Part shown: piece by piece, positions 9,171 to 30,523 of the stretch
Position numbering within the stretch: position 1 is the first letter of the stretch
Layout: each line of letters begins with the position of its first letter
Source: Methyloversatilis thermotolerans
GTDB taxonomy: Bacteria; Pseudomonadota; Gammaproteobacteria; Burkholderiales; Rhodocyclaceae
Direction of reading: 5' to 3'
Assembly (NCBI RefSeq): GCF_000372885.1
Contig: NZ_KB889967.1
Span: 1,305,215 to 1,369,214 of the forward strand
Length of the DNA: 64,000 bases
The notes under the pieces: generated by a model
What the model saw: only the letters and a program-made list of their open reading frames with translations
The model's database searches: none
Told to the model about the DNA's origin: nothing
Translations under genes and position numbers: made by a program

Positions 9171-10085
9171 ATGGATTACGCGAAACAGATCAAGGAAATA
9201 GGACGTGGCGCCAAGGGCGCACGTTCGCTGTCGCGCGACGACGCACGCGCGCTGTTCGGCGACATGCTGGACGGCCGGGTGCCGCCGCTGCAACTGGGCG
9301 CCATCGTGATTGCGCTGCGCGTCAAGAGCGAATCGCTGGACGAACTGCTCGGCTTCCAGGACGCGCTGCGTGAGCGCGTGACGCGGATCGACGCGCCGGG
9401 CGGGATGCGCACGGTGGTGCTGCCGACCTACAACGGCGCACGACGGCGTCCGAATCTGATGCCTCTGGTCGCACTGCTGCTGGCACGCGCCGGTGTGCCG
9501 GTGCTGATACACGGCCGCTTCGATTTCGACAGCCGGGCCGACCCGTTCGCACTGCTGCGCGAGCTGGACATGCCCATGGCGACCGATGCGGCGCACGCCG
9601 CCGCGCTGCTGTCAGAGCGGCGCATCGCCTGCATCGGCGTCGACGCGCTTGCACCGGGTCTGGATGCGCTGCTGTCGCTGCGTCCGCAGCTCGGGGTGCG
9701 CAATTCGGCGCATTCGATGACCAAGATGATCGATCCTCTGCCTGGCCGCAGTGTGCGCGTGGTGCCGGTCACCCACCCTGAGTACCTGGAGCGCATGAGT
9801 CACTTCCTGCGCGAGGACGGAGGCCGCTCCATCCTGATGCGCGGCACCGAGGGAGAAGCCTACGCCAATCCGGCCCGGCGGCCGGTCATGACCGGTTTCG
9901 TCGACGGGCGCGAGGAAAGACTGTTCGAACAGGAGGACGGGGAGCCACTCGGTTCGCCCGAGCCGGCCATCGTCGCCGACATGAATGCCCGGGTCGTGCT
10001 CGACATGTACGAAGGACGTGCAGCGGTGCCGGCCCCGCTGGCCGACCAGGTCACCGCCTGCATCCGGCTCGCACGGGAGCGCTGA
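9171..10085 (+). CDS. ybiB: YbiB-like protein, anthranilate phosphoribosyltransferase fold (copy 1)
   Basis: The 304-residue protein begins MDYAKQIKEIGRG followed by SLSRDDARALFGDMLDG and VPPLQLGAIVIALRVK, the helical N-terminal domain of the TrpD family. Later segments (RRRPNLMPLVALLLARAGVP, SAHSMTKMIDPL) follow TrpD2/YbiB rather than true TrpD. YbiB of E. coli binds nucleic acids without sequence preference and does not make anthranilate ribotides (family knowledge). It ends about 150 bp upstream of the sigma-54 promoter of the nitrite reductase operon, and a second copy ends that cluster. The ATG at 9171 fits the family N-terminus. Confidence 0.82.
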   Translation: MDYAKQIKEIGRGAKGARSLSRDDARALFGDMLDGRVPPLQLGAIVIALRVKSESLDELLGFQDALRERVTRIDAPGGMRTVVLPTYNGARRRPNLMPLVALLLARAGVPVLIHGRFDFDSRADPFALLRELDMPMATDAAHAAALLSERRIACIGVDALAPGLDALLSLRPQLGVRNSAHSMTKMIDPLPGRSVRVVPVTHPEYLERMSHFLREDGGRSILMRGTEGEAYANPARRPVMTGFVDGREERLFEQEDGEPLGSPEPAIVADMNARVVLDMYEGRAAVPAPLADQVTACIRLARER

Positions 10086-10098
10086 GCGCAACACCGTC

Positions 10099-10133
10099 GC
10101 ACCAGTTCGGACAGATCCGCACCAATTCCGTGC
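10099..10133 (+). promoter_or_regulatory. Two NtrC-like enhancer sites
   Basis: Two sites start with GCACC and are spaced exactly 20 bp apart, about two helical turns: GCACCAGTTCGGACA (10099-10113) and GCACCAATTCCGTGC (10119-10133). Against the NtrC consensus GCACY-N5-GGTGC, the second matches four of five bases in its right half; the first matches only two. They lie about 130-155 bp upstream of the predicted start, a usual enhancer position. Confidence 0.55.
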
Positions 10134-10232
10134 CGACCCATGGGGTCGCACAGGCATCACGGCATCGACAGGCAACGGCCATTGCCTTGGCTGACAAGGC
10201 TTTCACGACGGCGCCATGGTACTCACCCGGCT

Positions 10233-10248
10233 TGGCAATATTTTTGCT
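10233..10248 (+). promoter_or_regulatory. Sigma-54 promoter of nirB
   Basis: The sequence TGGCAATATTTTTGCT matches the -24/-12 pattern TGGCA-N6-TTGCW. The GG and GC elements are in correct 10-bp spacing (GG at 10234-10235, GC at 10246-10247). The predicted start is near 10259. The upstream NtrC-like sites and downstream nitrogen-assimilation genes support it. Confidence 0.8.
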
Positions 10249-10321
10249 TTGCTCCATTCGCGTCACGCTGCATGGCGTGCCGCTTGAATCGATTCAAGTC
10301 CGTTCCATCACCCGCCCGCGC

Positions 10322-10387
10322 CCGCAAATGTCTGCGGCGAGGGCAACGTGATCAAGGCCTGAGCACATTCGACGCAAAGACGTGTCG
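10322..10387 (+). ncRNA. ANTAR-responsive dual hexaloop leader element
   Basis: There are two hairpins in the nirB leader. P1 at 10322-10337 has stem CCGCA/TGCGG and hexaloop AATGTC. P2 at 10370-10387 has stem CGACGC/GTGTCG (one G-U pair) and hexaloop AAAGAC. Both six-base loops have A at position 1 and G at position 4, the defining features of RNAs bound by ANTAR antiterminators such as NasR and NasT (family knowledge). Thirty-two bases separate the hairpins. No ANTAR protein gene is in the window. Confidence 0.75.
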
Positions 10388-10523
10388 TGCTCCCGCCGGT
10401 CCGGTACCGCTGTATGGATTCGAAACTCATCGTGGCGTAGAGCCACTGCATTCGATGCACTGTCCGGCGGGACCTCGACCCGCCTCAGTCGTGTCGTCAT
10501 CCGGGCCGTGAGCACTTTGTTTT
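10387..10523 (+). terminator. Candidate regulated terminator in the nirB leader
   Basis: GTGCTCCCGCCGG at 10387-10399 can pair with 10501-10515 (ending GTGAGCAC) through about 12 base pairs, with one mismatch and a two-base bulge. The run TTTGTTTT (10516-10523) follows directly. The same GTGCTC can instead pair with GAGCAC at 10361-10366, which would extend hairpin P2. The two pairings exclude each other, as expected of an antitermination switch. The loop is long (about 100 nt), so this is a hypothesis. Confidence 0.4.
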
Positions 10524-10742
10524 CGCGGCCCGTCGGAAGTCATCGGTTCCGAAGCCCAATGCAGGGCCCGGGCCGACAGGTATGAACATCGCCGGAACGA
10601 TCCGGCACGACAAGGTTTTTCCCTTAGCGGCATCAGCGCTGGAGCAGATGTCGGTTTTCGCTCGTCCGTACTCCGTGCGGCCGCGCCGCCGGGGGAATCG
10701 TCGGTCGCACGACTTGCGGCCAGTTCTTGCGGGAATCGGGAC

Positions 10743-13211
10743 ATGGAAAAGAAACGTCTGGTCATGGTGGGCAACGGGATGGCCGGTTGCCGCACGCTGG
10801 AAGAGCTGCTGAAGATCGCTCCGGACATGTATGACATCACGGTGTTCGGTGCCGAGCCCCATCCGAATTACAACCGCATCCTGCTTTCGCCGGTGCTGGC
10901 CGGAGAAATGACCATACAGGACATCATCCTGAATGACCGGGACTGGTATCGCGACAATGGCATCACGCTGCACACCGGCCGCCGCATCGTGAAACTGGAT
11001 CGCGTCGCCCGCAAGGTGATCGCGGACGACGGCAGCGAGGCGAGCTACGACAGACTGCTGCTGGCGACCGGCTCCAACCCCTTCATCCTGCCGGTGCCGG
11101 GCAAGGATCTGCCGGGCGTCATCGCCTATCGCGACATCGCCGACACCGACGCGATGATAGAGGCGGCCGCCACACGCCGGCACGCGGTGGTGATCGGCGC
11201 CGGCCTGCTCGGTCTGGAAGCGGCCAACGGCCTGGCGCTGCGCGGCATGCAGGTGACGGTGGTGCACATCGGCGCCTGGATCATGGAACGCCAGCTCGAC
11301 AAGCCTTCGGCCGACATGCTTCAGGCTTCGCTGGAGCGGAAGGGACTCACCTTCCTGCTCGAGAAGCAGACCGAATCGCTGATCGCGGGCAGCGACGGCC
11401 GGGTGTCGGCGATACGCTTCAAGAGCGGCGAAACGATTCCGGCCGATCTGGTGGTGATGGCGGCCGGCATACGCCCGAACACCGCGCTCGCCGAGTCAGC
11501 CGGCCTGCACTGCAATCGCGGCATCGTGGTCAATGACACCCTGCAGACCTTCGACCCCAAGATCTATGCCGTCGGTGAGTGCGTGAACCACCGCGGCATC
11601 GCCTATGGTCTGGTCGCCCCGCTGTTCGAGCAGGCCAAGGTGTGTGCCAATCATCTCGCGCAGTACGGCATCGGTACCTACAAGGGTTCGGTCACCTCGA
11701 CCAAGCTCAAGGTGACCGGCATCGATGTGTTCTCGGCCGGCAACTTCATGGGCGGACCCGGATGCGACGACATCGTGCTGCACGACCCGGCGGGCGGCGT
11801 CTACAAGAAGCTGGTGCTCGAAGGCGATCGTCTGGTGGGCGCCTGTCTGTATGGCGACACGGCCGACGGTGCCTGGTATTTCCAGCTCATCAAGGACGGA
11901 CAGGACATCCACGAACTGCGCGACCACCTCATGTTCGGCCAGAACCACCTGGGCGATGTCGGGCACAAGGGTCAGACCCAGGCAGCCGCCATGCCGGATA
12001 CAGCCGAGGTGTGCGGCTGCAATGGCGTGTGCAAGGGCAGCATCGTCAAGGCGATCAAGGAACAGGGCCTGTTCACGCTGGATGACGTGCGCAAGCACAC
12101 CAAGGCATCCTCGTCCTGCGGTTCATGCACCGGGCTGGTCGAACAGATCCTCGCTTCGTGCATAGGCGGCGCCTACACGCCTGCCGATTCGTCGAGCAAG
12201 GCCCTCTGCGGCTGTACCGACCTGAACCACGGCGAGGTGCGCGCCGCCATCCGCGAACGCCACCTCATCGACATCCCGTCGGTGATGCGCGAATTGAAGT
12301 GGAAGACGCCGAACGGCTGCGCGAGCTGTCGCCCGGCCCTGAACTACTACCTGATCTCCACCTGGCCGCACGAGGCGAAGGACGATCCGCAGAGCCGCTT
12401 CATCAATGAGCGCGCGCACGCCAACATCCAGAAGGACGGAACCTATTCTGTGGTGCCGCGCATGTGGGGCGGGCTGACCACGCCGGACGAATTGCGGGCG
12501 ATCGCCGATGCGGCCGAGAAGTACAAGGTGCCCACGGTCAAGGTGACCGGCGGCCAGCGCATCGATCTGCTGGGTGTGAAGAAGGACGACCTGCCGGCGA
12601 TGTGGGCGGATTTCGCGAAGGCCGGCATGGTGTCCGGTCACGCGTATGGCAAGAGCCTGCGTACCGTCAAGACCTGCGTCGGCGCCGAACACTGCCGCTT
12701 CGGCACGCAGTTGTCGATGAGCATGGGCGTGAAGCTCGAGAAGATGCTGTTCGGCATGTGGAGCCCGCACAAGGTGAAGCTGGCGGTATCGGGCTGCCCG
12801 CGCAATTGCGCCGAAGCCGGCATCAAGGACGTCGGCGTGATCGGTGTCGAGTCGGGCTATGAGCTCTATGTCGCCGGCAATGGCGGCATCAAGACCGAGG
12901 TGGCGCAGTTCTTCTGCAAGGTGGGCAGCGACGAGGAGGTGATGGAGTACGCCGGCGCCTTCCTGCAGCTCTACCGCGAAGAGGGCTACTACCTCGAGCG
13001 CACCGTGCACTATGTCGAACGCGTCGGTCTGGACCATGTGAAGGGCAAGGTGGTCGAGGACGCCGACAACCGCCGCGCGCTGTACGAACGCCTGCTGTTC
13101 GCCCTGCAGGACTACAAGGACCCGTGGCTGGAGCGCGCCGAAGCCGAGGCGAAATCCGAACTGGGCCGCGAATTCCGCAGCATCGCCATCAAACAGGCGA
13201 TGAAGGCCTGA
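10743..13211 (+). CDS. nirB: Assimilatory nitrite reductase, large subunit
   Basis: This 822-residue cytosolic enzyme reduces nitrite to ammonium with NAD(P)H. The N-terminal FAD/NAD oxidoreductase (about 1-410) has MVGNGMAGCRTLEEL and VVIGAGLLGLEAANGL. Two BFD-like [2Fe-2S] modules follow: CGCNGVCKG with SSCGSCTG near 420-465, and CGCTDLNHG with NGCASCRP near 485-535. The siroheme/[4Fe-4S] domain carries AEHCRFG near 650 and SGCPRNC near 684, the four cluster cysteines. Length and order match E. coli NirB. It is first of the nirB-nirD-narK-kinase series and sits behind a sigma-54 promoter and ANTAR-type leader. Confidence 0.96.
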   Translation: MEKKRLVMVGNGMAGCRTLEELLKIAPDMYDITVFGAEPHPNYNRILLSPVLAGEMTIQDIILNDRDWYRDNGITLHTGRRIVKLDRVARKVIADDGSEASYDRLLLATGSNPFILPVPGKDLPGVIAYRDIADTDAMIEAAATRRHAVVIGAGLLGLEAANGLALRGMQVTVVHIGAWIMERQLDKPSADMLQASLERKGLTFLLEKQTESLIAGSDGRVSAIRFKSGETIPADLVVMAAGIRPNTALAESAGLHCNRGIVVNDTLQTFDPKIYAVGECVNHRGIAYGLVAPLFEQAKVCANHLAQYGIGTYKGSVTSTKLKVTGIDVFSAGNFMGGPGCDDIVLHDPAGGVYKKLVLEGDRLVGACLYGDTADGAWYFQLIKDGQDIHELRDHLMFGQNHLGDVGHKGQTQAAAMPDTAEVCGCNGVCKGSIVKAIKEQGLFTLDDVRKHTKASSSCGSCTGLVEQILASCIGGAYTPADSSSKALCGCTDLNHGEVRAAIRERHLIDIPSVMRELKWKTPNGCASCRPALNYYLISTWPHEAKDDPQSRFINERAHANIQKDGTYSVVPRMWGGLTTPDELRAIADAAEKYKVPTVKVTGGQRIDLLGVKKDDLPAMWADFAKAGMVSGHAYGKSLRTVKTCVGAEHCRFGTQLSMSMGVKLEKMLFGMWSPHKVKLAVSGCPRNCAEAGIKDVGVIGVESGYELYVAGNGGIKTEVAQFFCKVGSDEEVMEYAGAFLQLYREEGYYLERTVHYVERVGLDHVKGKVVEDADNRRALYERLLFALQDYKDPWLERAEAEAKSELGREFRSIAIKQAMKA

Positions 13212-13348: not shown

Positions 13349-13669
13349 ATGAGCACCGAAACCACCCCCTGGGCGCCGGTCTGCGCGCTCGACGACATTC
13401 CGCTGCTCGGCTCGCGCGTCGTGCGCGCCGATTCCGGCGACATCGCCCTCTTCCGCACCGACGGTGACGTGGTGTTCGCCGTGCATGACAAGTGCCCTCA
13501 CAAGGGCGGGCCGCTGTCCCAGGGCATCGTGCACGGTCACACCGTCACCTGTCCGCTGCACGGCTGGAAGATACAGCTTGAATCTGGCGAAGCGGTTGCG
13601 CCCGACGTCGGCTGCGCCCGACGTTTCGATGTGAAGGTGGAGCACGGCCAGGTGTGGCTGCGCACCTGA
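13349..13669 (+). CDS. nirD: Nitrite reductase small subunit, Rieske-type
   Basis: The 106-residue partner of NirB has a Rieske fold with a complete [2Fe-2S] ligand set: Cys49-x-His51 (KCPHKGGPLSQG) and Cys68-x2-His71 (TCPLHGW). Many enterobacterial NirD proteins lack these ligands, so this one may carry a cluster and pass electrons. It follows nirB across a 137-bp gap filled by a palindromic repeat. AGGAAC precedes the ATG. Confidence 0.92.
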   Translation: MSTETTPWAPVCALDDIPLLGSRVVRADSGDIALFRTDGDVVFAVHDKCPHKGGPLSQGIVHGHTVTCPLHGWKIQLESGEAVAPDVGCARRFDVKVEHGQVWLRT

Positions 13670-13770: not shown

Positions 13771-14985
13771 ATGGACAAGAAAGCCTTTCTCAAGGCCGGA
13801 CACGCACCCACGCTGTTCGCCGCCTTTCTCTACTTCGATCTCGCCTTCATGGTGTGGGTGCTGCTCGGTCCTCTGGGTGTGCAGATTGCGCAGGACCTTC
13901 AACTCACCCACGCGCAGAAGGGATTCATGGTGGCGGTACCGGTCCTGGCCGGCGCCGTACTGCGGCTGTTCATGGGTGTGCTGGTGGATCATCTCCAGCC
14001 CAAGAAGGCCGGTGCAATAGGCCAGATCATCGTCATCGCCGCATTGTTCGCCGCCTGGCAGTTCGGCATCCACAGCTATGACCAGGCACTGTTGCTGGGA
14101 TGCTTTCTTGGCTTCGCCGGGGCGGCGTTTGCCGTCGCGCTGCCGCTGGCGTCGCGCTGGTATCCGCCCGAGCATCAAGGCACCGCCCTGGGGATTGCCG
14201 GCGCAGGCAACTCGGGGACTGCACTGGCCGCCCTGTTCGCACCCGGCCTGGCGGCGGCTTTCGGCTGGACCCAGGTGTTCGGGCTGGCTCTGATTCCGCT
14301 GGTCGCGGTGTTCGTGCTCTACCTGCTGGTTGCCAGGGACGCACCGGAGTGTCCGCCGCCGAAAACGCTCTCCGAATACCTGAAGGTGCTGCAGGATCGG
14401 GACGCCTGGTGGTTCATGTTCTTCTACAGCGTCACCTTCGGCGGCTTCGTCGGTCTCGCCTCCTCGCTCACCATCTACTTCAACACCCAGTACGGCCTCG
14501 ACGCCAAGGTGGCTGGCTATTTCACCGCCGCCTGCGTATTTGCCGGCTCGCTGGTGCGTCCGGTTGGCGGCAATCTGGCGGACCGCATCGGCGGCATCCG
14601 CACGCTGAGCTGCATGTACATACTGGCCGCCGTCTTCCTGTTCGTCGCGAGTTTCGGCCTGCCGCAGGCCTGGATGGCGGTGATCGCCTTCGTGGCGGCC
14701 ATGCTCGCGCTCGGCATGGGCAATGGCGCGGTGTTCCAGCTCGTGCCGCAGCGCTTCCGCCGGGAGATCGGTGTCATGACCGGCCTGGTCGGCATGGCCG
14801 GTGGCGTGGGCGGCTTCTATCTCGCCTCGTCGCTGGGCTGGTCGCGCGAAGTGAGCGGCAGCTATCAGGCCGGTTTCGTCGTGTTCGCGCTGCTCGCCGT
14901 GGCCGCGCTGATCGGCCTCACCCGCGTCAAGACGCGCTGGCGCACCACCTGGGGCGCCGCCCACCTTACGTCCGCCCGCATCTGA
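13771..14985 (+). CDS. narK: Nitrate/nitrite transporter, MFS NarK family
   Basis: This 404-residue inner-membrane transporter has about twelve hydrophobic helices. Nitrate-signature glycine-rich segments lie near residue 145 (GIAGAGNSGTALAALFAPGLA, written here with its flanks) and near 312 (ALGMGNGAVFQLVPQRF). The FMVAVPVLAGAVLRL stretch with the conserved helix-2 arginine is typical of NarK/NasA carriers. In this assimilatory cluster it probably imports nitrate or nitrite; no NrtABC-type ABC transporter is present in the window. GGGAGG lies about 10 bases before the ATG. Confidence 0.93.
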   Translation: MDKKAFLKAGHAPTLFAAFLYFDLAFMVWVLLGPLGVQIAQDLQLTHAQKGFMVAVPVLAGAVLRLFMGVLVDHLQPKKAGAIGQIIVIAALFAAWQFGIHSYDQALLLGCFLGFAGAAFAVALPLASRWYPPEHQGTALGIAGAGNSGTALAALFAPGLAAAFGWTQVFGLALIPLVAVFVLYLLVARDAPECPPPKTLSEYLKVLQDRDAWWFMFFYSVTFGGFVGLASSLTIYFNTQYGLDAKVAGYFTAACVFAGSLVRPVGGNLADRIGGIRTLSCMYILAAVFLFVASFGLPQAWMAVIAFVAAMLALGMGNGAVFQLVPQRFRREIGVMTGLVGMAGGVGGFYLASSLGWSREVSGSYQAGFVVFALLAVAALIGLTRVKTRWRTTWGAAHLTSARI

Positions 14986-14997
14986 GCGGCGCCGATC

Positions 14998-16677
14998 ATG
15001 GCACTGGAAGTCGCGATAAGCCAGCACAGCAGCGCCGGCGCACGCAGTCGCAACGAGGATTTCGCCGGCGCCGTCACGCCCGCTGGCCAGAGCCTCGATG
15101 CCCGGGGCGTGCTCTGTGCGGTGGCCGATGGAGTGGGTGGGCATGCCAAGGGACGGGAGGCCGCGGAGTACACGGTGCGCGGCCTGCTGAACGACTACTA
15201 CGCAACACCCGAAACCTGGCGCGTCGCGGATGCGCTGGATACCGTGCTGTGCGCACTGAACCGCTGGCTGCTCGCGCACGCCGCACACAGCCGCGAAAGC
15301 TGCGGCATGGCCACCACGCTGTCAGCGCTGGTATTGCGCGGTACGCGCTGGCACGTCGCCCATGTCGGCGATTCGCGCATCTACCTCTACCGGGACGGCC
15401 TGCTGAGCCGTCTGACCGATGACCACACGTGGCCGCATCCGGAACTCGACAATGTGCTGCACCGCGCGGTGGGTCTGGATCCGCGCCTCAATATCGATCA
15501 TTTCGATGGAGAACTGCAGGCAGGCGACATTTTCGTGCTGGTGACCGACGGCGTATGGAACACCCTGCTGGATGCCGGCATCCAGCGCACGATCGGGCGC
15601 GCGCACCTGGACATGGACGCACTGGCCACCGAACTGGTGATGCAATCGGAAGCGCGCGGCGCCCAGGACAACTGCACGGCATTGGTCGCGAAAGTCACCG
15701 CCCTGCCCCACGCGGCGCTGCGCGACCGCCTGGCGGAATCGGAACGCTTGCCACTGCCGCCTGCATTGTCGCCAGGCCAGACGCTGGATGGATTCGTGGT
15801 CGAGGCCGTGCTGCATGCCTCGCGCGAAACCCTGCTCTATCGCGTGCGCGATCCGGTCAGCGACGAATTGCGCGTATTGAAAACCTTGCGCACGAACTGT
15901 GGTCCTGACGCGATTGCGGCGCTGGTACACGAGGAATGGCTGGCACGCAGCGTGGTGTCGCCGCATTTCCCGTCGGTCATCCGCAATGGCTCTCGCAGTC
16001 ACCTGTACTACCTGATGAGCTGGCATGAGGGATGCAGCCTGCGCCAGCGCCTCGATGCCGGTGGACACTTCACGATCGACGAAGTGGTCAGACTGGCTGG
16101 CACCACCTTGCGAGCGCTGTCTGTGCTGCATCGCCGCAGCATCGTGCATCGCGACATCAAGCCGGACAACCTGCACCTCGATCTCCACGGTACGCTACGC
16201 ATCCTGGATCTGGGGGTGGCGGCGAGCGACAGTGAAGCGTTCCGCGAGATCAACAATCCCGGTACACCGAGCTATATGGCACCCGAGCTGTTCTCAGGCC
16301 AGCTCGCAAGCGAATCGAGCGACCTGTTTGCGCTGGGCGTCACGCTGTACGAACTGCTGACGCGCCATTACCCGTGGGGGGAAATCGAGCCGTTCCAGCG
16401 TCCGCGTTTCGGAGAACCCATACCACCGACGCGCTACCGGCCCGACATTCCGGCCTGGCTGGAAGCGCTCCTGCTCAAGGCGATCGCCCGCTCTCCGGAA
16501 GCCCGTTTCGAAACTGCGGAAGAATTCCTGCTGGCTCTGGAGCGCGGCGCGCATCGCCCGCTGGCAATGCCGCGGCCGTTGCCACTGGTCCAGCGCATGC
16601 CGGAGCGCGTACTGCGTGCATTGCTCATGTTGTCGCTGCTCGGCAACCTTCTGCTGGCCGGCGCCCTGTTCGCATGA
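14998..16677 (+). CDS. Bifunctional PP2C phosphatase / Ser-Thr protein kinase, tail-anchored
   Basis: The 559-residue protein fuses two opposing enzymes. The PP2C phosphatase (about 1-235) shows RNEDF, ADGVGGHAKG (Asp44), GMATTLSAL, HVGDSRIYLY, LVTDGVWN and QDNCTALV, covering the metal-binding aspartates. The kinase (about 260-530) has VLKTL, HRDIKPDN near 384, DLGVAA in place of DFG near 404, and GTPSYMAPEL. A canonical Gly-rich loop is not evident. One C-terminal transmembrane helix (LLMLSLLGNLLLAGALF) would anchor it in the membrane. It starts 12 bases after narK. Such fusions recur in nitrate-assimilation operons (family knowledge), but the substrate is unknown. Confidence 0.88.
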   Translation: MALEVAISQHSSAGARSRNEDFAGAVTPAGQSLDARGVLCAVADGVGGHAKGREAAEYTVRGLLNDYYATPETWRVADALDTVLCALNRWLLAHAAHSRESCGMATTLSALVLRGTRWHVAHVGDSRIYLYRDGLLSRLTDDHTWPHPELDNVLHRAVGLDPRLNIDHFDGELQAGDIFVLVTDGVWNTLLDAGIQRTIGRAHLDMDALATELVMQSEARGAQDNCTALVAKVTALPHAALRDRLAESERLPLPPALSPGQTLDGFVVEAVLHASRETLLYRVRDPVSDELRVLKTLRTNCGPDAIAALVHEEWLARSVVSPHFPSVIRNGSRSHLYYLMSWHEGCSLRQRLDAGGHFTIDEVVRLAGTTLRALSVLHRRSIVHRDIKPDNLHLDLHGTLRILDLGVAASDSEAFREINNPGTPSYMAPELFSGQLASESSDLFALGVTLYELLTRHYPWGEIEPFQRPRFGEPIPPTRYRPDIPAWLEALLLKAIARSPEARFETAEEFLLALERGAHRPLAMPRPLPLVQRMPERVLRALLMLSLLGNLLLAGALFA

Positions 16678-16846: not shown

Positions 16847-19576
16847 ATGACCGGCACGCATCAACACACCCGCTCGACCTGCTGCTACTGCGGCGTCGGG
16901 TGCGGCGTCATCATCCAGCATGACGGCGAACGCATCGTCGATGTACGCGGCGACCCGGACCACCCGGCCAATTTCGGCCGGCTGTGCACCAAGGGTGCGA
17001 CGCTGCATCTGACCACGCGTCGCGAACTGCGCGCGCTGCATCCAGAGATGCGCGGCTCGCGCGCACTGCCGCGGGAGCGGACCAGCTGGGAGGGTGCGCT
17101 CGATCACGCAGCGGCGCGCTTCGCCGACATCATCCGCAGCCACGGGCCCGATGCCGTCGCCTTCTATGTGTCCGGTCAGTTGCTGACCGAGGACTACTAC
17201 GTCTTCAACAAGCTGGCCAAGGGACTGATAGGCACCAACAACATCGACACCAATTCGCGACTGTGCATGAGCTCGGCCGTGATGGCCTACAAGCAGACAC
17301 TGGGTGCCGATGCGCCTCCGTGCAGTTACCAGGACATCGACCACACCGACTGTCTGCTCATCGCAGGCGGCAATCCGGCCTACGCGCACCCCATCGTCTA
17401 TCGCCGCATCGAAGCCGCACGCGCAGCGAAACCCCGGATGAAGATGATCGTGGTCGATCCGCGCCGCACCGACACCGCATCGGACGCCGATCTGCACCTG
17501 CCTCTGCTGCCGGGTACGGACATATGGCTGTACAACGCAATGCTGCACGTGATGCTGTGGGAAGGTCTGATCGATGAAGATTTCATCGCGCAGCACACCA
17601 CCGGATTTGCCGCGCTGCGCTCGCATGTACGAGAAGTGACGCCAGCGGTTGCCGCCGAAGTGTGCGGCCTGCGCGCCGATGACATCGTCACGGCAGCGCG
17701 CTGGTTCGGTGAAGCGGACGCAGCGATGTCCATGTGGTGCCAGGGCCTCAACCAGTCGCATCACGGCACGCACAGTGGCGCTGCACTCATTGCGCTGCAC
17801 CTGGCCACCGGCCAGATCGGACGCGCGGGCGCCGGTCCTTTCTCGCTGACCGGCCAACCGAATGCCATGGGCGGACGCGAAGTGGGCGGCATGTCCACAC
17901 TGCTGTCGGCGCACCGCGACCTGGCGAATCCTGACCATCGCGCCGAAGTAGCCCGGCTGTGGGGGGTCCCGGAGGTACCCGCGCAACCAGGGTTGACCGC
18001 GGTCGAGTTGTTCGACGCGCTGCACGAAGGAAAGGTGAAGGCGGTTTGGGTCGCTTGTACCAATCCGGCCCATTCCATGCCTGATCAGAGCCGCATCGTC
18101 GAGGCATTGCGAAAGGCCGATTTCGTGGTCGTGCAGGATGCCTGCCGCAATACCGAAACGGCGGGTTTCGCGGACGTGCTGTTGCCGGCAAGCGCCTGGG
18201 GCGAAAAGGACGGTACGGTGACCAATTCGGAACGGAGAATCACGCGTGTACAGGCAGCGGTGCCGGCTCCGGGCGAAGCACGCCCCGACTGGATGATCGC
18301 GCGCGATTTCGCGCGCCGGCTCGGCACGCACCTCGGCCGTGACGCATCGTCACTGTTCCCGTACGAATGCACCGCACAGATATTCGCCGAGCACGCGGAA
18401 AGCACGCGTGGGCGGGATCTGGACATCACCGGGCTGAGCCACGCCTTGCTCGAGACGCATGGCCCGCAGCAGTGGCCCTACCCGGAAGGTGCCTCGTCCG
18501 GCCGCCAGCGCCTGTACCAGGACCGCATATTCGCAACGCCGGATGGCCGCGCCCGCTTCGTAGTGCCGGCCAGCGGCACCACGGCGGAAAGGATAGATGC
18601 GCGTCACCCCCTGCATCTGAACACCGGCCGCTTGCGCGACCACTGGCACTGCATGAGTCGCACCGGACAGGTAGCGCGGCTGTACAGCCATGTGGACGAA
18701 CCACGCGTCGAGGTGCATGCCGACGACCTCGCGCGTCGCGGGCTGAAGGACGGCGATCTGGTGAAGCTGCGCAGCCGGCGCGGCGAGATCGTGCTGCGCG
18801 CGCGCGCAAGCGAGGCCCAGCGCCCGGGCAGCGTTTTCGTGGCCATGCATTGGGGCCGCAACATGCTGTCGAACAGCGGCGCGAATGCGCTGATCGCCGG
18901 ACGTACCGATCCGTTCTCGAAACAGCCTGAGCTCAAGCACGCTGCGATACAGGTCGCGCGCGCCGATCTTCCGTTCCAGGCCTTGCTCATGCGTACCGAA
19001 GCGGACGACGAGCGCGCGTGCGCGAAGGCCCTGCTCAGAATGGATGCGCTCGCGCCTGTGCTGTCGCGCTTCGGCTACGCATCGGTCGCACTGGCCGGCC
19101 GCGAACGTCCGGCCGTGGTGCTGCGCATCGCCCATGCCGACGCAATTCCGCAGGACTGGCTGGCGGAACTGGACCACCTGTTCGGGCTGAACGACGGCCG
19201 CTGCCTCGTCTATCGCGATGCGCGACGGGATATCACCAAGCGCGCGCTGATCGAGGATGGTCTGCTGACCGGCATCCGGCTGACCGGCGAAACCGCGGCG
19301 GCCGACTGGTTGCGCGACGTGATGGTGGAACAGCGACCGACCGCCGACCTGAGACGCTGGATTTTCGCACCGCTCACCACGCCGCCGGTCGCCGCCGAAA
19401 AGCGGGGGCGCATCGTCTGCAACTGTCTGAACGTGGCCGAGCCGGACATTCTGGCGGCCATTGCGCGCGGCGCGGAGCTGAGCGAACTGCAGGACACGCT
19501 GCGCTGCGGCACCTCATGCGGATCCTGCGTACCGGAAATCAAGAGAATGCTGGAGGCCGGGCGGCGGGCGGCCTGA
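16847..19576 (+). CDS. nasA: Assimilatory nitrate reductase catalytic subunit with C-terminal BFD-like domain
   Basis: This 909-residue cytosolic molybdopterin enzyme reduces nitrate to nitrite for NirBD. The N-terminal [4Fe-4S] ligands are in CCYCGVGCGV (from Cys12) with RLCTKG near 46. Mo-bisMGD domains follow, with SRLCMSSAVMAYK near 140 and the GxNxSHHGTHSGA region near 305. There is no Tat signal, as expected for an assimilatory enzyme. The C-terminus ends in a BFD-like [2Fe-2S] module (CNCLNVAEPDIL with CGTSCGSCVPEI). Just before it is a segment resembling the dimerisation domain of FAD reductases, as in NirB. No separate NasC/NasB reductase gene is present, so the electron donor is unclear. 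Confidence 0.94.
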   Translation: MTGTHQHTRSTCCYCGVGCGVIIQHDGERIVDVRGDPDHPANFGRLCTKGATLHLTTRRELRALHPEMRGSRALPRERTSWEGALDHAAARFADIIRSHGPDAVAFYVSGQLLTEDYYVFNKLAKGLIGTNNIDTNSRLCMSSAVMAYKQTLGADAPPCSYQDIDHTDCLLIAGGNPAYAHPIVYRRIEAARAAKPRMKMIVVDPRRTDTASDADLHLPLLPGTDIWLYNAMLHVMLWEGLIDEDFIAQHTTGFAALRSHVREVTPAVAAEVCGLRADDIVTAARWFGEADAAMSMWCQGLNQSHHGTHSGAALIALHLATGQIGRAGAGPFSLTGQPNAMGGREVGGMSTLLSAHRDLANPDHRAEVARLWGVPEVPAQPGLTAVELFDALHEGKVKAVWVACTNPAHSMPDQSRIVEALRKADFVVVQDACRNTETAGFADVLLPASAWGEKDGTVTNSERRITRVQAAVPAPGEARPDWMIARDFARRLGTHLGRDASSLFPYECTAQIFAEHAESTRGRDLDITGLSHALLETHGPQQWPYPEGASSGRQRLYQDRIFATPDGRARFVVPASGTTAERIDARHPLHLNTGRLRDHWHCMSRTGQVARLYSHVDEPRVEVHADDLARRGLKDGDLVKLRSRRGEIVLRARASEAQRPGSVFVAMHWGRNMLSNSGANALIAGRTDPFSKQPELKHAAIQVARADLPFQALLMRTEADDERACAKALLRMDALAPVLSRFGYASVALAGRERPAVVLRIAHADAIPQDWLAELDHLFGLNDGRCLVYRDARRDITKRALIEDGLLTGIRLTGETAAADWLRDVMVEQRPTADLRRWIFAPLTTPPVAAEKRGRIVCNCLNVAEPDILAAIARGAELSELQDTLRCGTSCGSCVPEIKRMLEAGRRAA

Positions 19577-28930: not shown

Positions 28931-30523
28931 ATGTCCACTCCACCGCGACGCCTCGAGGAAATCGAGTTCGACAATCTGTTCGTACGCAGCCTGCCGGCGG
29001 ATCCATCCCCGGACATCCGTCCGCGACAGGTACGCCACGCCGCCTACACCTTTACGCCACCAACGCCGGTGAGCGCGCCGCAGCTTCTTGCCTGGTCAGA
29101 ACGGCTGGCCGATCAACTGGGGCTGCGGCGCCCGGCACCTCGCGATGCCGCCGTCGAGGCTCTGGCGGGCAATCGTGTTCTTGCAGGCATGCAGCCTTAC
29201 GCAGCACGCTACGGCGGTCACCAGTTCGGCAACTGGGCGGGGCAGCTCGGCGACGGGCGCGCGATCACGCTGGGCGAAATGATGGACCGGCATGGGCAAC
29301 GGCAGGAACTGCAGCTCAAGGGTGCCGGCCCGACACCTTATTCGCGCCATGCCGACGGCCGCGCGGTCCTGCGCTCATCGGTGCGCGAATTCCTCTGCAG
29401 CGAGGCCATGTTCCACCTGGGCATCCCCACCACGCGTGCCCTGAGCCTGGTGGCGACCGGCGATACGGTGGTGCGCGACATGTTCTATGACGGCCGCCCG
29501 GAACACGAGCCGGGTGCCATCGTGTGCCGTGTCGCCCCCAGCTTCGTGCGCTTCGGCCACTTCGAGATACTGACGGCCAACGACGAACCCGGACTGTTGA
29601 AGCAACTGGTGGACTGGGTCATGCATCATCACTATCCCGGACTGAGCGATCCCGCCGACTGGTTCGCCGAAATCTGCTGCCGCACGGCCCGCCTGATGGT
29701 GGACTGGATGCGTGTGGGCTTCGTGCATGGGGTGATGAATACCGACAACATGTCCATCCTCGGTCTGACCATCGATTACGGCCCCTATGGCTGGCTCGAG
29801 GGTGTTGACATGATGTGGACGCCGAACACCACCGATGCCCAGGGTCGCCGCTATTGCTACGGCCGACAGCCGCAGATCGCCTACTGGAACCTCACCCGGC
29901 TTGCGGGCGCACTGGCACCGCTGATCAATGACCGCGATGCGCTCGACGCGGCGCTGGCAGGCTATGAACAGACCTTTGCCGAAGGCTGGTCGCGCATGTT
30001 GTCCGACAAGCTCGGCCTGCCTCTGCCGACGCCTGAGGACGAGCAGGAACAGGCGTTGCGCAGCCAGCTTTTCGTGCTTCTCCAGCAGGAAGAAACCGAC
30101 TTCACGATCTTCTTCCGGCGGCTCGCGCAGGTCGATGTGGACGCCGCGCTGAGCGGCGAGGTGTCCGCCCTCGACCCGCTGCTCGAAGCCTTCTACAGCC
30201 CCGGCAGCCCCTCGCCCGAGCATGCGCGTGCCTGGCTTGCATGGCTGCAGCAATGGGCGCAACGCATACGCGCAGGCGGCGAAACCGATGTGTCGCGACG
30301 GACGCGCATGAATGCCACCAATCCGAAGTACATCGTCCGCAACTGGCTGGCGCAGCGCGCCATCGACGATGCGGCGGCCGGCGACACGGCCATGCTGGAG
30401 CGCCTGCTCGTCATGATGCGCACGCCCTACGACGAACAGCCCGGATTCGACGATCTGGCCGGAAAGCGGCCGGAATGGGCGCGCCACAAGCCGGGCTGTT
30501 CCGCCTTGTCATGCAGCTCATGA
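28931..30523 (+). CDS. selO: SelO/YdiU protein AMPylase
   Basis: This 530-residue pseudokinase-fold enzyme transfers AMP to Ser/Thr/Tyr of target proteins in redox stress (family knowledge). Conserved segments are YGGHQFGNWAGQLGDGRA near 98-115, ELQLKGAGPTPYSRHADGRAV near 130, FVHGVMNTDNMSI near 270 (catalytic Asn-Asp) and NPKYIVRNWLAQ. The C-terminus GCSALSCSS keeps the conserved cysteine that is selenocysteine in eukaryotes; here it is Cys. The ATG at 28931 (MSTPPRRLEEI) was preferred to 28889. Its stop overlaps the next start. Confidence 0.94.
   Translation: MSTPPRRLEEIEFDNLFVRSLPADPSPDIRPRQVRHAAYTFTPPTPVSAPQLLAWSERLADQLGLRRPAPRDAAVEALAGNRVLAGMQPYAARYGGHQFGNWAGQLGDGRAITLGEMMDRHGQRQELQLKGAGPTPYSRHADGRAVLRSSVREFLCSEAMFHLGIPTTRALSLVATGDTVVRDMFYDGRPEHEPGAIVCRVAPSFVRFGHFEILTANDEPGLLKQLVDWVMHHHYPGLSDPADWFAEICCRTARLMVDWMRVGFVHGVMNTDNMSILGLTIDYGPYGWLEGVDMMWTPNTTDAQGRRYCYGRQPQIAYWNLTRLAGALAPLINDRDALDAALAGYEQTFAEGWSRMLSDKLGLPLPTPEDEQEQALRSQLFVLLQQEETDFTIFFRRLAQVDVDAALSGEVSALDPLLEAFYSPGSPSPEHARAWLAWLQQWAQRIRAGGETDVSRRTRMNATNPKYIVRNWLAQRAIDDAAAGDTAMLERLLVMMRTPYDEQPGFDDLAGKRPEWARHKPGCSALSCSS

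Follow-up and report, generated by a model that had tools for sequence, protein, structure and literature searches.

The nitrite reductase gene nirB of Methyloversatilis thermotolerans is preceded by a leader of 484 nt, and the question raised by this locus is whether this leader is the RNA target of an ANTAR protein and, if so, which of its hairpins make up the target. The window analysed here is a stretch of 64,000 nucleotides (contig NZ_KB889967.1, positions 1,305,215 to 1,369,214 of the forward strand), and positions refer to it except where another locus is named. An initial annotation had placed a dual hexaloop element of the NasR/NasT type at 10322-10387, formed by two neighbouring hairpins (hereafter hairpins 1 and 2), and had predicted from it that the nirB genes need nitrate or nitrite in addition to nitrogen limitation, with the responsible ANTAR protein encoded elsewhere. 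In the passages of PMC3369931 and PMC8934654 that define ANTAR targets, these consist of two hexaloop hairpins with A at loop position 1 (A1), G at position 4 (G4) and limited spacing, with a terminator overlapping the hexaloop element in the antitermination type; for EutV, lengthening the linker by 14 bases or by 20 nt is described there as impairing function. Nitrite reductase is named among the genes downstream of ANTAR RNA matches in a passage of PMC3369931, and a title cited in PMC6759348 reports NasT-type antitermination within the P. aeruginosa nirBD-PA1779-cobA operon. ANTAR control of nirB is not new, and the arrangement described below, with three hexaloops and no overlapping terminator, is a variant of it; no paper on this particular leader was found among those listed for it from the open-licence literature.

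The nirB gene (10743..13211, forward strand; above the cut-off of NCBIfam TIGR02374) is the first of a series that continues with nirD (Rieske protein, 13349-13669), a narK-like gene (13771-14985, scoring just below its NCBIfam cut-off), a PP2C-kinase fusion (14998-16677) and a nasA-like oxidoreductase gene (16847-19576, with scores below the cut-offs). Two motifs lie 5' of the leader on the same strand: the inverted repeat GCACCAATTCCGTGC (GCAC-N7-GTGC, 10119..10133), a putative NtrC site by its resemblance to the consensus, and TGGCAATATTTTTGC (10233..10247), presumably a sigma-54 (-24/-12) promoter, likewise judged by its consensus. The comparison set comprised the nirB leaders of 13 genomes of the genus, the window's own genome included. 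The TGGC-N8-TGC motif was present in 13/13 of these leaders, and counterparts of the repeat were located 114-170 nt 5' of the promoter-like site in all 13 genomes, with GGGC replacing GTGC in one of them (L027). The nitrogen-limitation part of the prediction agrees with this conserved pairing of motifs, on top of which nitrate or nitrite would be a further requirement for nirB expression.

RNAalifold was run on the genus leaders without a given structure, over a block that begins some 200 nt upstream and extends as far as the start codon, and returned three hairpins with six-base loops (A, B and C) besides plain hairpins. Hairpin A, which is hairpin 2 of the initial annotation, spans 10357..10396 (forward strand) with its outer helix, around a core at 10370-10387 of six base pairs, one of them G-U (CGACGC[AAAGAC]GTGTCG). 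It was kept in 13/13 leaders, the loop always having A1 and G4, and 95.3% of its alignment cells were paired. Its covariation score (0.277 vs. 0.158 in shuffled alignments) was reached by 0/500 shuffles, a comparison in which kinship is uncontrolled, and was above that of slid versions of the structure; five pairs were changed on both sides (reached by 12/500 shuffles), while the value for further pair types was reached by 479/500. A degenerate pattern of hairpin A, built from the same 13 copies on which it was scored, matched once per genome in 13/13 genus genomes, always 5' of nirB, and had no match in 108 other genomes, the reversed control giving one match in total over all genomes. As a hexaloop, hairpin 2 was correctly identified.

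Hairpin 1 fared differently. Both proposed hairpins are present, with stems of 5 and 6 bp, six-base loops and A1 and G4 in each, and hairpin 1 (10322..10337, forward strand; CCGCA[AATGTC]TGCGG, 5 bp) is a real fold, but it had no aligned counterpart in the 12 other genus genomes. Over the 13 sequences, 46.9% of the cells in its columns were paired, within the 30-54% of the slid controls, and its covariation score was reached by 116/500 shuffles. An ANNGNN hairpin with at least three stem pairs was absent from the 90 nt 5' of hairpin 2 in 11 of the 12 relatives; the remaining one (L020) carries a different, unaligned 4-bp ANNGNN hairpin with the loop AACGCG, about 5 nt off the place of hairpin 1. 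Loss of a loop in close relatives had been named beforehand as counting against the proposed element, and this is what was found for hairpin 1, which probably lies outside the element and was probably wrong as its first hairpin (P1). Of the dual hexaloop proposed at 10322-10387, the ANTAR-type leader and the conserved hairpin 2 stand, and hairpin 1 does not.

The other two hexaloops lie about 180-230 nt downstream of the site first proposed. Hairpin B (10544..10575 with its outer helix, core 10554-10567, forward strand) has the loop AATGCA, with A1 and G4 in 13/13 leaders and one C-G pair replaced by U-A in 4/13; together with the outer helix, 87.4% of its cells were paired. Hairpin C (10590..10607, forward strand; CCGG[AACGAT]CCGG) is our proposed second hairpin (P2) of a B-C pair; 97.4% of its cells were paired, with just one pair changing on both sides, and its loop had G4 in 13/13 leaders and A at position 1 in 3/13, the other 10/13 having C, which counts against the reading of this leader as an ANTAR target. 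Taken together, B (with its outer helix) and C had 91.0% of cells paired and a covariation score reached by 0/500 shuffles (kinship again uncontrolled) and above that of slid versions; the number of pairs changed on both sides was reached by 27/500 shuffles and the value for further pair types by 346/500. Two of the five covariation measures, two-sided changes and further pair types, are therefore unremarkable for both A and B-C. A swap test, which covered 16 arm pairs from eight representative leaders (p values uncorrected), showed a preference for the cognate partner arm in A (p 0.029), B (p 0.025) and C (p 0.010). Two plain hairpins are conserved further downstream on the forward strand, namely D (10629..10650), with covarying outer pairs, and E (10703..10721, seven pairs), which is present in 13/13 leaders just 5' of the ribosome site and is followed by the tail AGTTCTTG, weak in the window.

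An ANTAR protein is indeed encoded elsewhere in the genome, which holds three genes above the PF03861 cut-off, one of them NasT-like; such genes were found in 13/13 genus genomes and in 0/14 control genomes. The NasT-type REC-ANTAR gene is followed downstream by an nrtA-like gene, nrtB and an ATPase ORF (the ATPase recognised by eye), and orthologues 84-90% identical occur in the other 12 genus genomes (13/13 in all). The gap between nasT and nrtA (minus strand, about 6300-6170 of locus L004, G000:C1 near 2054200) contains a classical dual hexaloop with an intervening hairpin and an overlapping terminator stem. A sigma-54-like site, a P1 loop AACGNN, the intervening hairpin and a P2 loop ARGGGY were present in this gap in 13/13 genomes, with loop starts 43-44 nt apart; by eye, the terminator stem reuses the P2 loop and arm and is followed by 5-6 T in 12/13. 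Given this classical arrangement, hexaloop control of nitrate genes in the genus is very likely. The nirB leader shares with the nrtA leader the sigma-54-like site and a hexaloop pair, both kept across the genus, but the clear terminator stem and T run that P2 overlaps in front of nrtA were not seen in front of nirB.

With NasS-NasT nitrate control, as treated in parts of PMC3795266 and PMC6759348, the genome has in common a NasT-like REC-ANTAR gene and a nitrate assimilation operon with a target in its leader. It differs from that system in that no terminator was identified in the leader of the window and that the search for a NasS-like protein lacking an export-type motif was negative: each of the three strong NMT1_2 proteins carries an RR motif, which suggests export. 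At the nasT locus (L004, 4843-9291) the gene next to nasT encodes an NrtA-like protein, which carries an RR motif, and genes for a REC-SpoIIE phosphatase and a REC-HATPase protein lie upstream. The second REC-ANTAR gene (L005, 1458-8215) lies beside a histidine kinase-like ORF, with a permease and a flavin monooxygenase-like ORF nearby (labels by eye), and an AmiR-like ANTAR gene (L006, 6220-11242) adjoins an AmiC/UrtA-like gene; the ORFs divergent from the latter presumably encode dimethylformamidase subunits, which they resemble. In G020, G037, G044, G045, G068 and G071, the ANTAR end of NasT had matches within open frames of 445-524 aa on the nirB contig; these are possibly NasR-like NIT-ANTAR proteins replacing NasT.

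The matches listed comprised 95 distinct nirB leaders, some of them nearly alike; 13 belong to the genus and 82 to other genera (the named loci were 80 of 362 matches, 15 being identical to loci already in the set). A dual hexaloop (stems of at least 4, gap of at most 30 nt, within 250 nt of the start) was found in 23 of these 82 leaders of other genera among the matches listed, against 0.27 by shuffling (mean of 60 rounds, maximum 1). The P2 of these leaders is often GATC[AACGAC]GATC; 41/82 have a sigma-54-like site, and some of the 82 seem, by eye, to directly follow another gene. Loops without A1 occur in P2 of other genera too (GACGAC in L036, TCGGTA in L042, GACGCA in L053). The spacing of the loops was 35-42 nt in four leaders with long linkers and 20-25 nt in the other 16. 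In the genus leaders the loop starts of B and C are 38-45 nt apart, and hairpin A lies 152-168 nt upstream of B; since the B-C spacing is close to that of the nrtA element and of the long-linker nirB leaders, we take B-C to be the dual hexaloop, with A as a further hexaloop outside it.

Compared with the ANTAR dual hexaloop RNAs recognised by EutV, NasR and AmiR, as characterised in the sections cited above, the nirB leader likewise has six-base loops with A1 and G4 next to nitrogen genes, but it has three hexaloops instead of two, with A far from B, it has no overlapping terminator, and hairpin C begins its loop with C in most species. Set against the definition, B-C has the two hairpins and G4 throughout, A1 in part, and no overlapping terminator. 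Its loop starts, 38-45 nt apart, may be set beside the longer linkers that impair EutV function, though the stem of B is extended.

On balance we are fairly confident that the nirB leader is an ANTAR target, probably of the NasT-like protein encoded beside nrtA-nrtB, and that it acts through A plus B-C and not through hairpin 1. ANTAR/NasT control of nirB, with other parts than those first proposed, is likely because of the conserved hairpins, the nasT gene, the nrtA element and the dual hexaloops of other genera. At the level of sequence, three conserved hexaloop hairpins, a promoter-like site, a nasT gene and a classical nrtA element are all in place. In the mechanism that we propose, nitrogen shortage would start transcription from the NtrC/sigma-54 promoter, nitrate or nitrite would free NasT, and a NasT dimer would then grip the B-C hexaloop pair, with hairpin A upstream as an additional docking site; binding would let nirBD-narK-nasA be expressed, and the step under control, located between C and the start codon, would be either read-through or access of the ribosome.

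A more specific form of this proposal, which we regard as possible and hold tentatively, is a triple-hexaloop leader particular to the genus, in which the distal hairpin A, for docking, and the proximal pair B-C together hold NasT, no terminator overlaps the hairpins and the mode of action is other than classical antitermination, while NasT would use the classical terminator in front of nrtA. On a leader of about 485 nt such a mode may consist of long-range docking, Rho action or ribosome access. If true, a single nitrate regulator would act on two operons of one cell through different RNA output modes, and the hexaloop arrangement would lie outside the published dual-hairpin rule.

The evidence on the output step within the genus is mostly negative. 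No terminator-like site was detected in 10000-10800, and none overlapping A, B or C was detected in the 13 genus leaders, by a rule that is insensitive because it allows no bulge and misses the nrtA terminator seen by eye. Alternative helices of A, B and C with each other, with the ribosome site or with E showed no cognate preference among 13 longer-range pairings (lowest p 0.088, for the 3' arm of A with the 5' arm of E; 0.26 for the 3' arm of C with the ribosome site). Pairing of the 3' arm of A with C or its flank (e.g., 10383-10390 with 10605-10612) and of the 3' arm of C with the stretch before E were considered and rejected, as neither showed a cognate preference in the swap test. A clear C excess of the Rho type (C-rich, G-poor) was seen in the A-B spacer in just 4/13 leaders.

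Antitermination at E, where the hairpin and its U-rich tail would form an attenuator whose action is blocked by NasT bound upstream, is in our estimate rather unlikely. The hairpin is kept in all 13 leaders, at least four T follow within the next nine bases in 9/13, and 7/13 pass a simple terminator rule, so that E is the best attenuator candidate, but not a convincing one: the window's own copy fails the rule and has a weak tail, the tail is lost in L021-L024, terminator scans of the window leader were negative, and no helix that would make E and C mutually exclusive was supported.

Control of translation, with P2 competing against a helix that reaches the ribosome site as suggested for nirB leaders of other Rhodocyclaceae, appears unlikely in this genus, although the other genera offer an argument for it. 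Thirty-one leaders of other genera have a P2 candidate, and in most of these the loop of P2 together with its 3' arm folds onto sequence at or shortly ahead of the ribosome site (L063 is an exception). The terminator rule was positive in the last 110 nt in two of the 31 (L037, L040); two more (L029, L030) have a T5 run. Among 13 representatives less than 75% alike, drawn from 30 of the 31 leaders (L113 was dropped, its match not beginning at the start codon), the P2 loop and 3' arm preferred their own ribosome-site region (-15.85 kcal/mol with the cognate partner vs. -13.36 kcal/mol, p 0.00085). The preference remained for the 3' arm without the loop (p 0.0057) and was not seen for the 5' arm in the same swap test (p 0.58), where the sequence hardly varies. 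By contrast, the window's genus has no such preference (the p of 0.26 given above), and forcing A, B and C left the mean predicted exposure of the ribosome site essentially unchanged (0.48 to 0.46), with one exception in L017 (0.51 to 0.19). Even in the other genera the prediction was mixed: on forcing P1 and P2 in 19 leaders, exposure rose by more than 0.05 in 9 and fell in 8 (mean 0.38 to 0.40). The folding predictions thus suggest a translational switch in some clades of other genera but do not establish it in general. Leaders in which the P2 loop and 3' arm are complementary to the ribosome-site region of the same RNA include L028, L037, L094 and L114.

The leaders of other Rhodocyclaceae may be compared with actinobacterial ANTAR RNAs, which, in the portions of PMC8164766 concerned, have the ribosome site or start codon within the motif, a placement permitting action on translation, with mycobacterial binding described as repressive; the P2 of other Rhodocyclaceae would instead free the ribosome site. 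The competition suggested between P2 and the ribosome-site helix in these related genera would allow ANTAR action on translation in Proteobacteria to be tested directly.

The Rfam covariance models gave nothing at or above the gathering score over the nirB leader, and likewise nothing over the classical nrtA element and nine further loci; since the nrtA element also goes unscored, the result at the nirB leader is uninformative. A model trained on 20 nirB dual hexaloops from other genera (R1) matched neither B nor C in the 13 genus leaders, overlapped A in one of them (L018, 10.1 bits, E 3.3) and gave a match of 8.8 bits (E 7.1) at 10322-10365. It has little power, as it recovered just 5 of the 13 nrtA elements, weakly (8.9-13.3 bits, E 0.63-5.9; L130, L133, L135, L136 and L137). 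In the window's own genome it gave six matches (150 of 7836 candidates scored), the best with an E of 1.0. Its best match in the window, at 29057-29115 (18.7 bits, E 0.045), was rejected as a dual hexaloop, its second loop not being a hexaloop.

It is improbable, to our mind, that A, B and C are conserved for reasons that involve no ANTAR protein, as protein-binding DNA repeats or as hairpins that stabilize the RNA. Such a reading gains from the departure of hairpin C from A1 in most leaders and from the fact that ANTAR binding is here a conjecture, but it has to account for three separate hexaloops in which G4 is invariant, and A1 invariant in two, in front of a nitrite reductase gene and in a genome with both nasT and a classical nrtA element. 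Moreover, the loops are asymmetric and yet conserved, which favours an RNA over a palindromic DNA site.

There remains the pair at 10322-10387 itself. The pair is locally unusual, though by a test chosen after the pair had been seen. The minimum-energy fold of 10310-10400 (z -2.2; 5/200 shuffles fold at least as well) contains both hexaloops, and the gap between the two stems is 32 nt. In 2000 dinucleotide shuffles of the 484-nt leader, a hairpin pair with stems of at least 5 and a gap of at most 40 nt occurred in 0.1%, and in 1.1% when stems of at least 4 were allowed. Over the whole window, stems of at least 5 gave 2 pairs vs. 0.4 expected, both in the nirB leader and both involving hairpin 1. 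With stems of at least 4, 7 pairs were found on both strands vs. 3.75 expected (20 shuffles), and the bare ANNGNN pair pattern is for this reason weak evidence. That the pair is a working dual hexaloop in this single species, having replaced another P1, is very unlikely: the predicted fold, the rarity of such pairs in leader shuffles and the ANNGNN hairpin of L020 near the place of hairpin 1 speak for it, but hairpin 1 is without an aligned counterpart in the 12 relatives, whereas A, B and C persist, and B and C are both preserved intact here, at a loop spacing that resembles that of the nrtA element.
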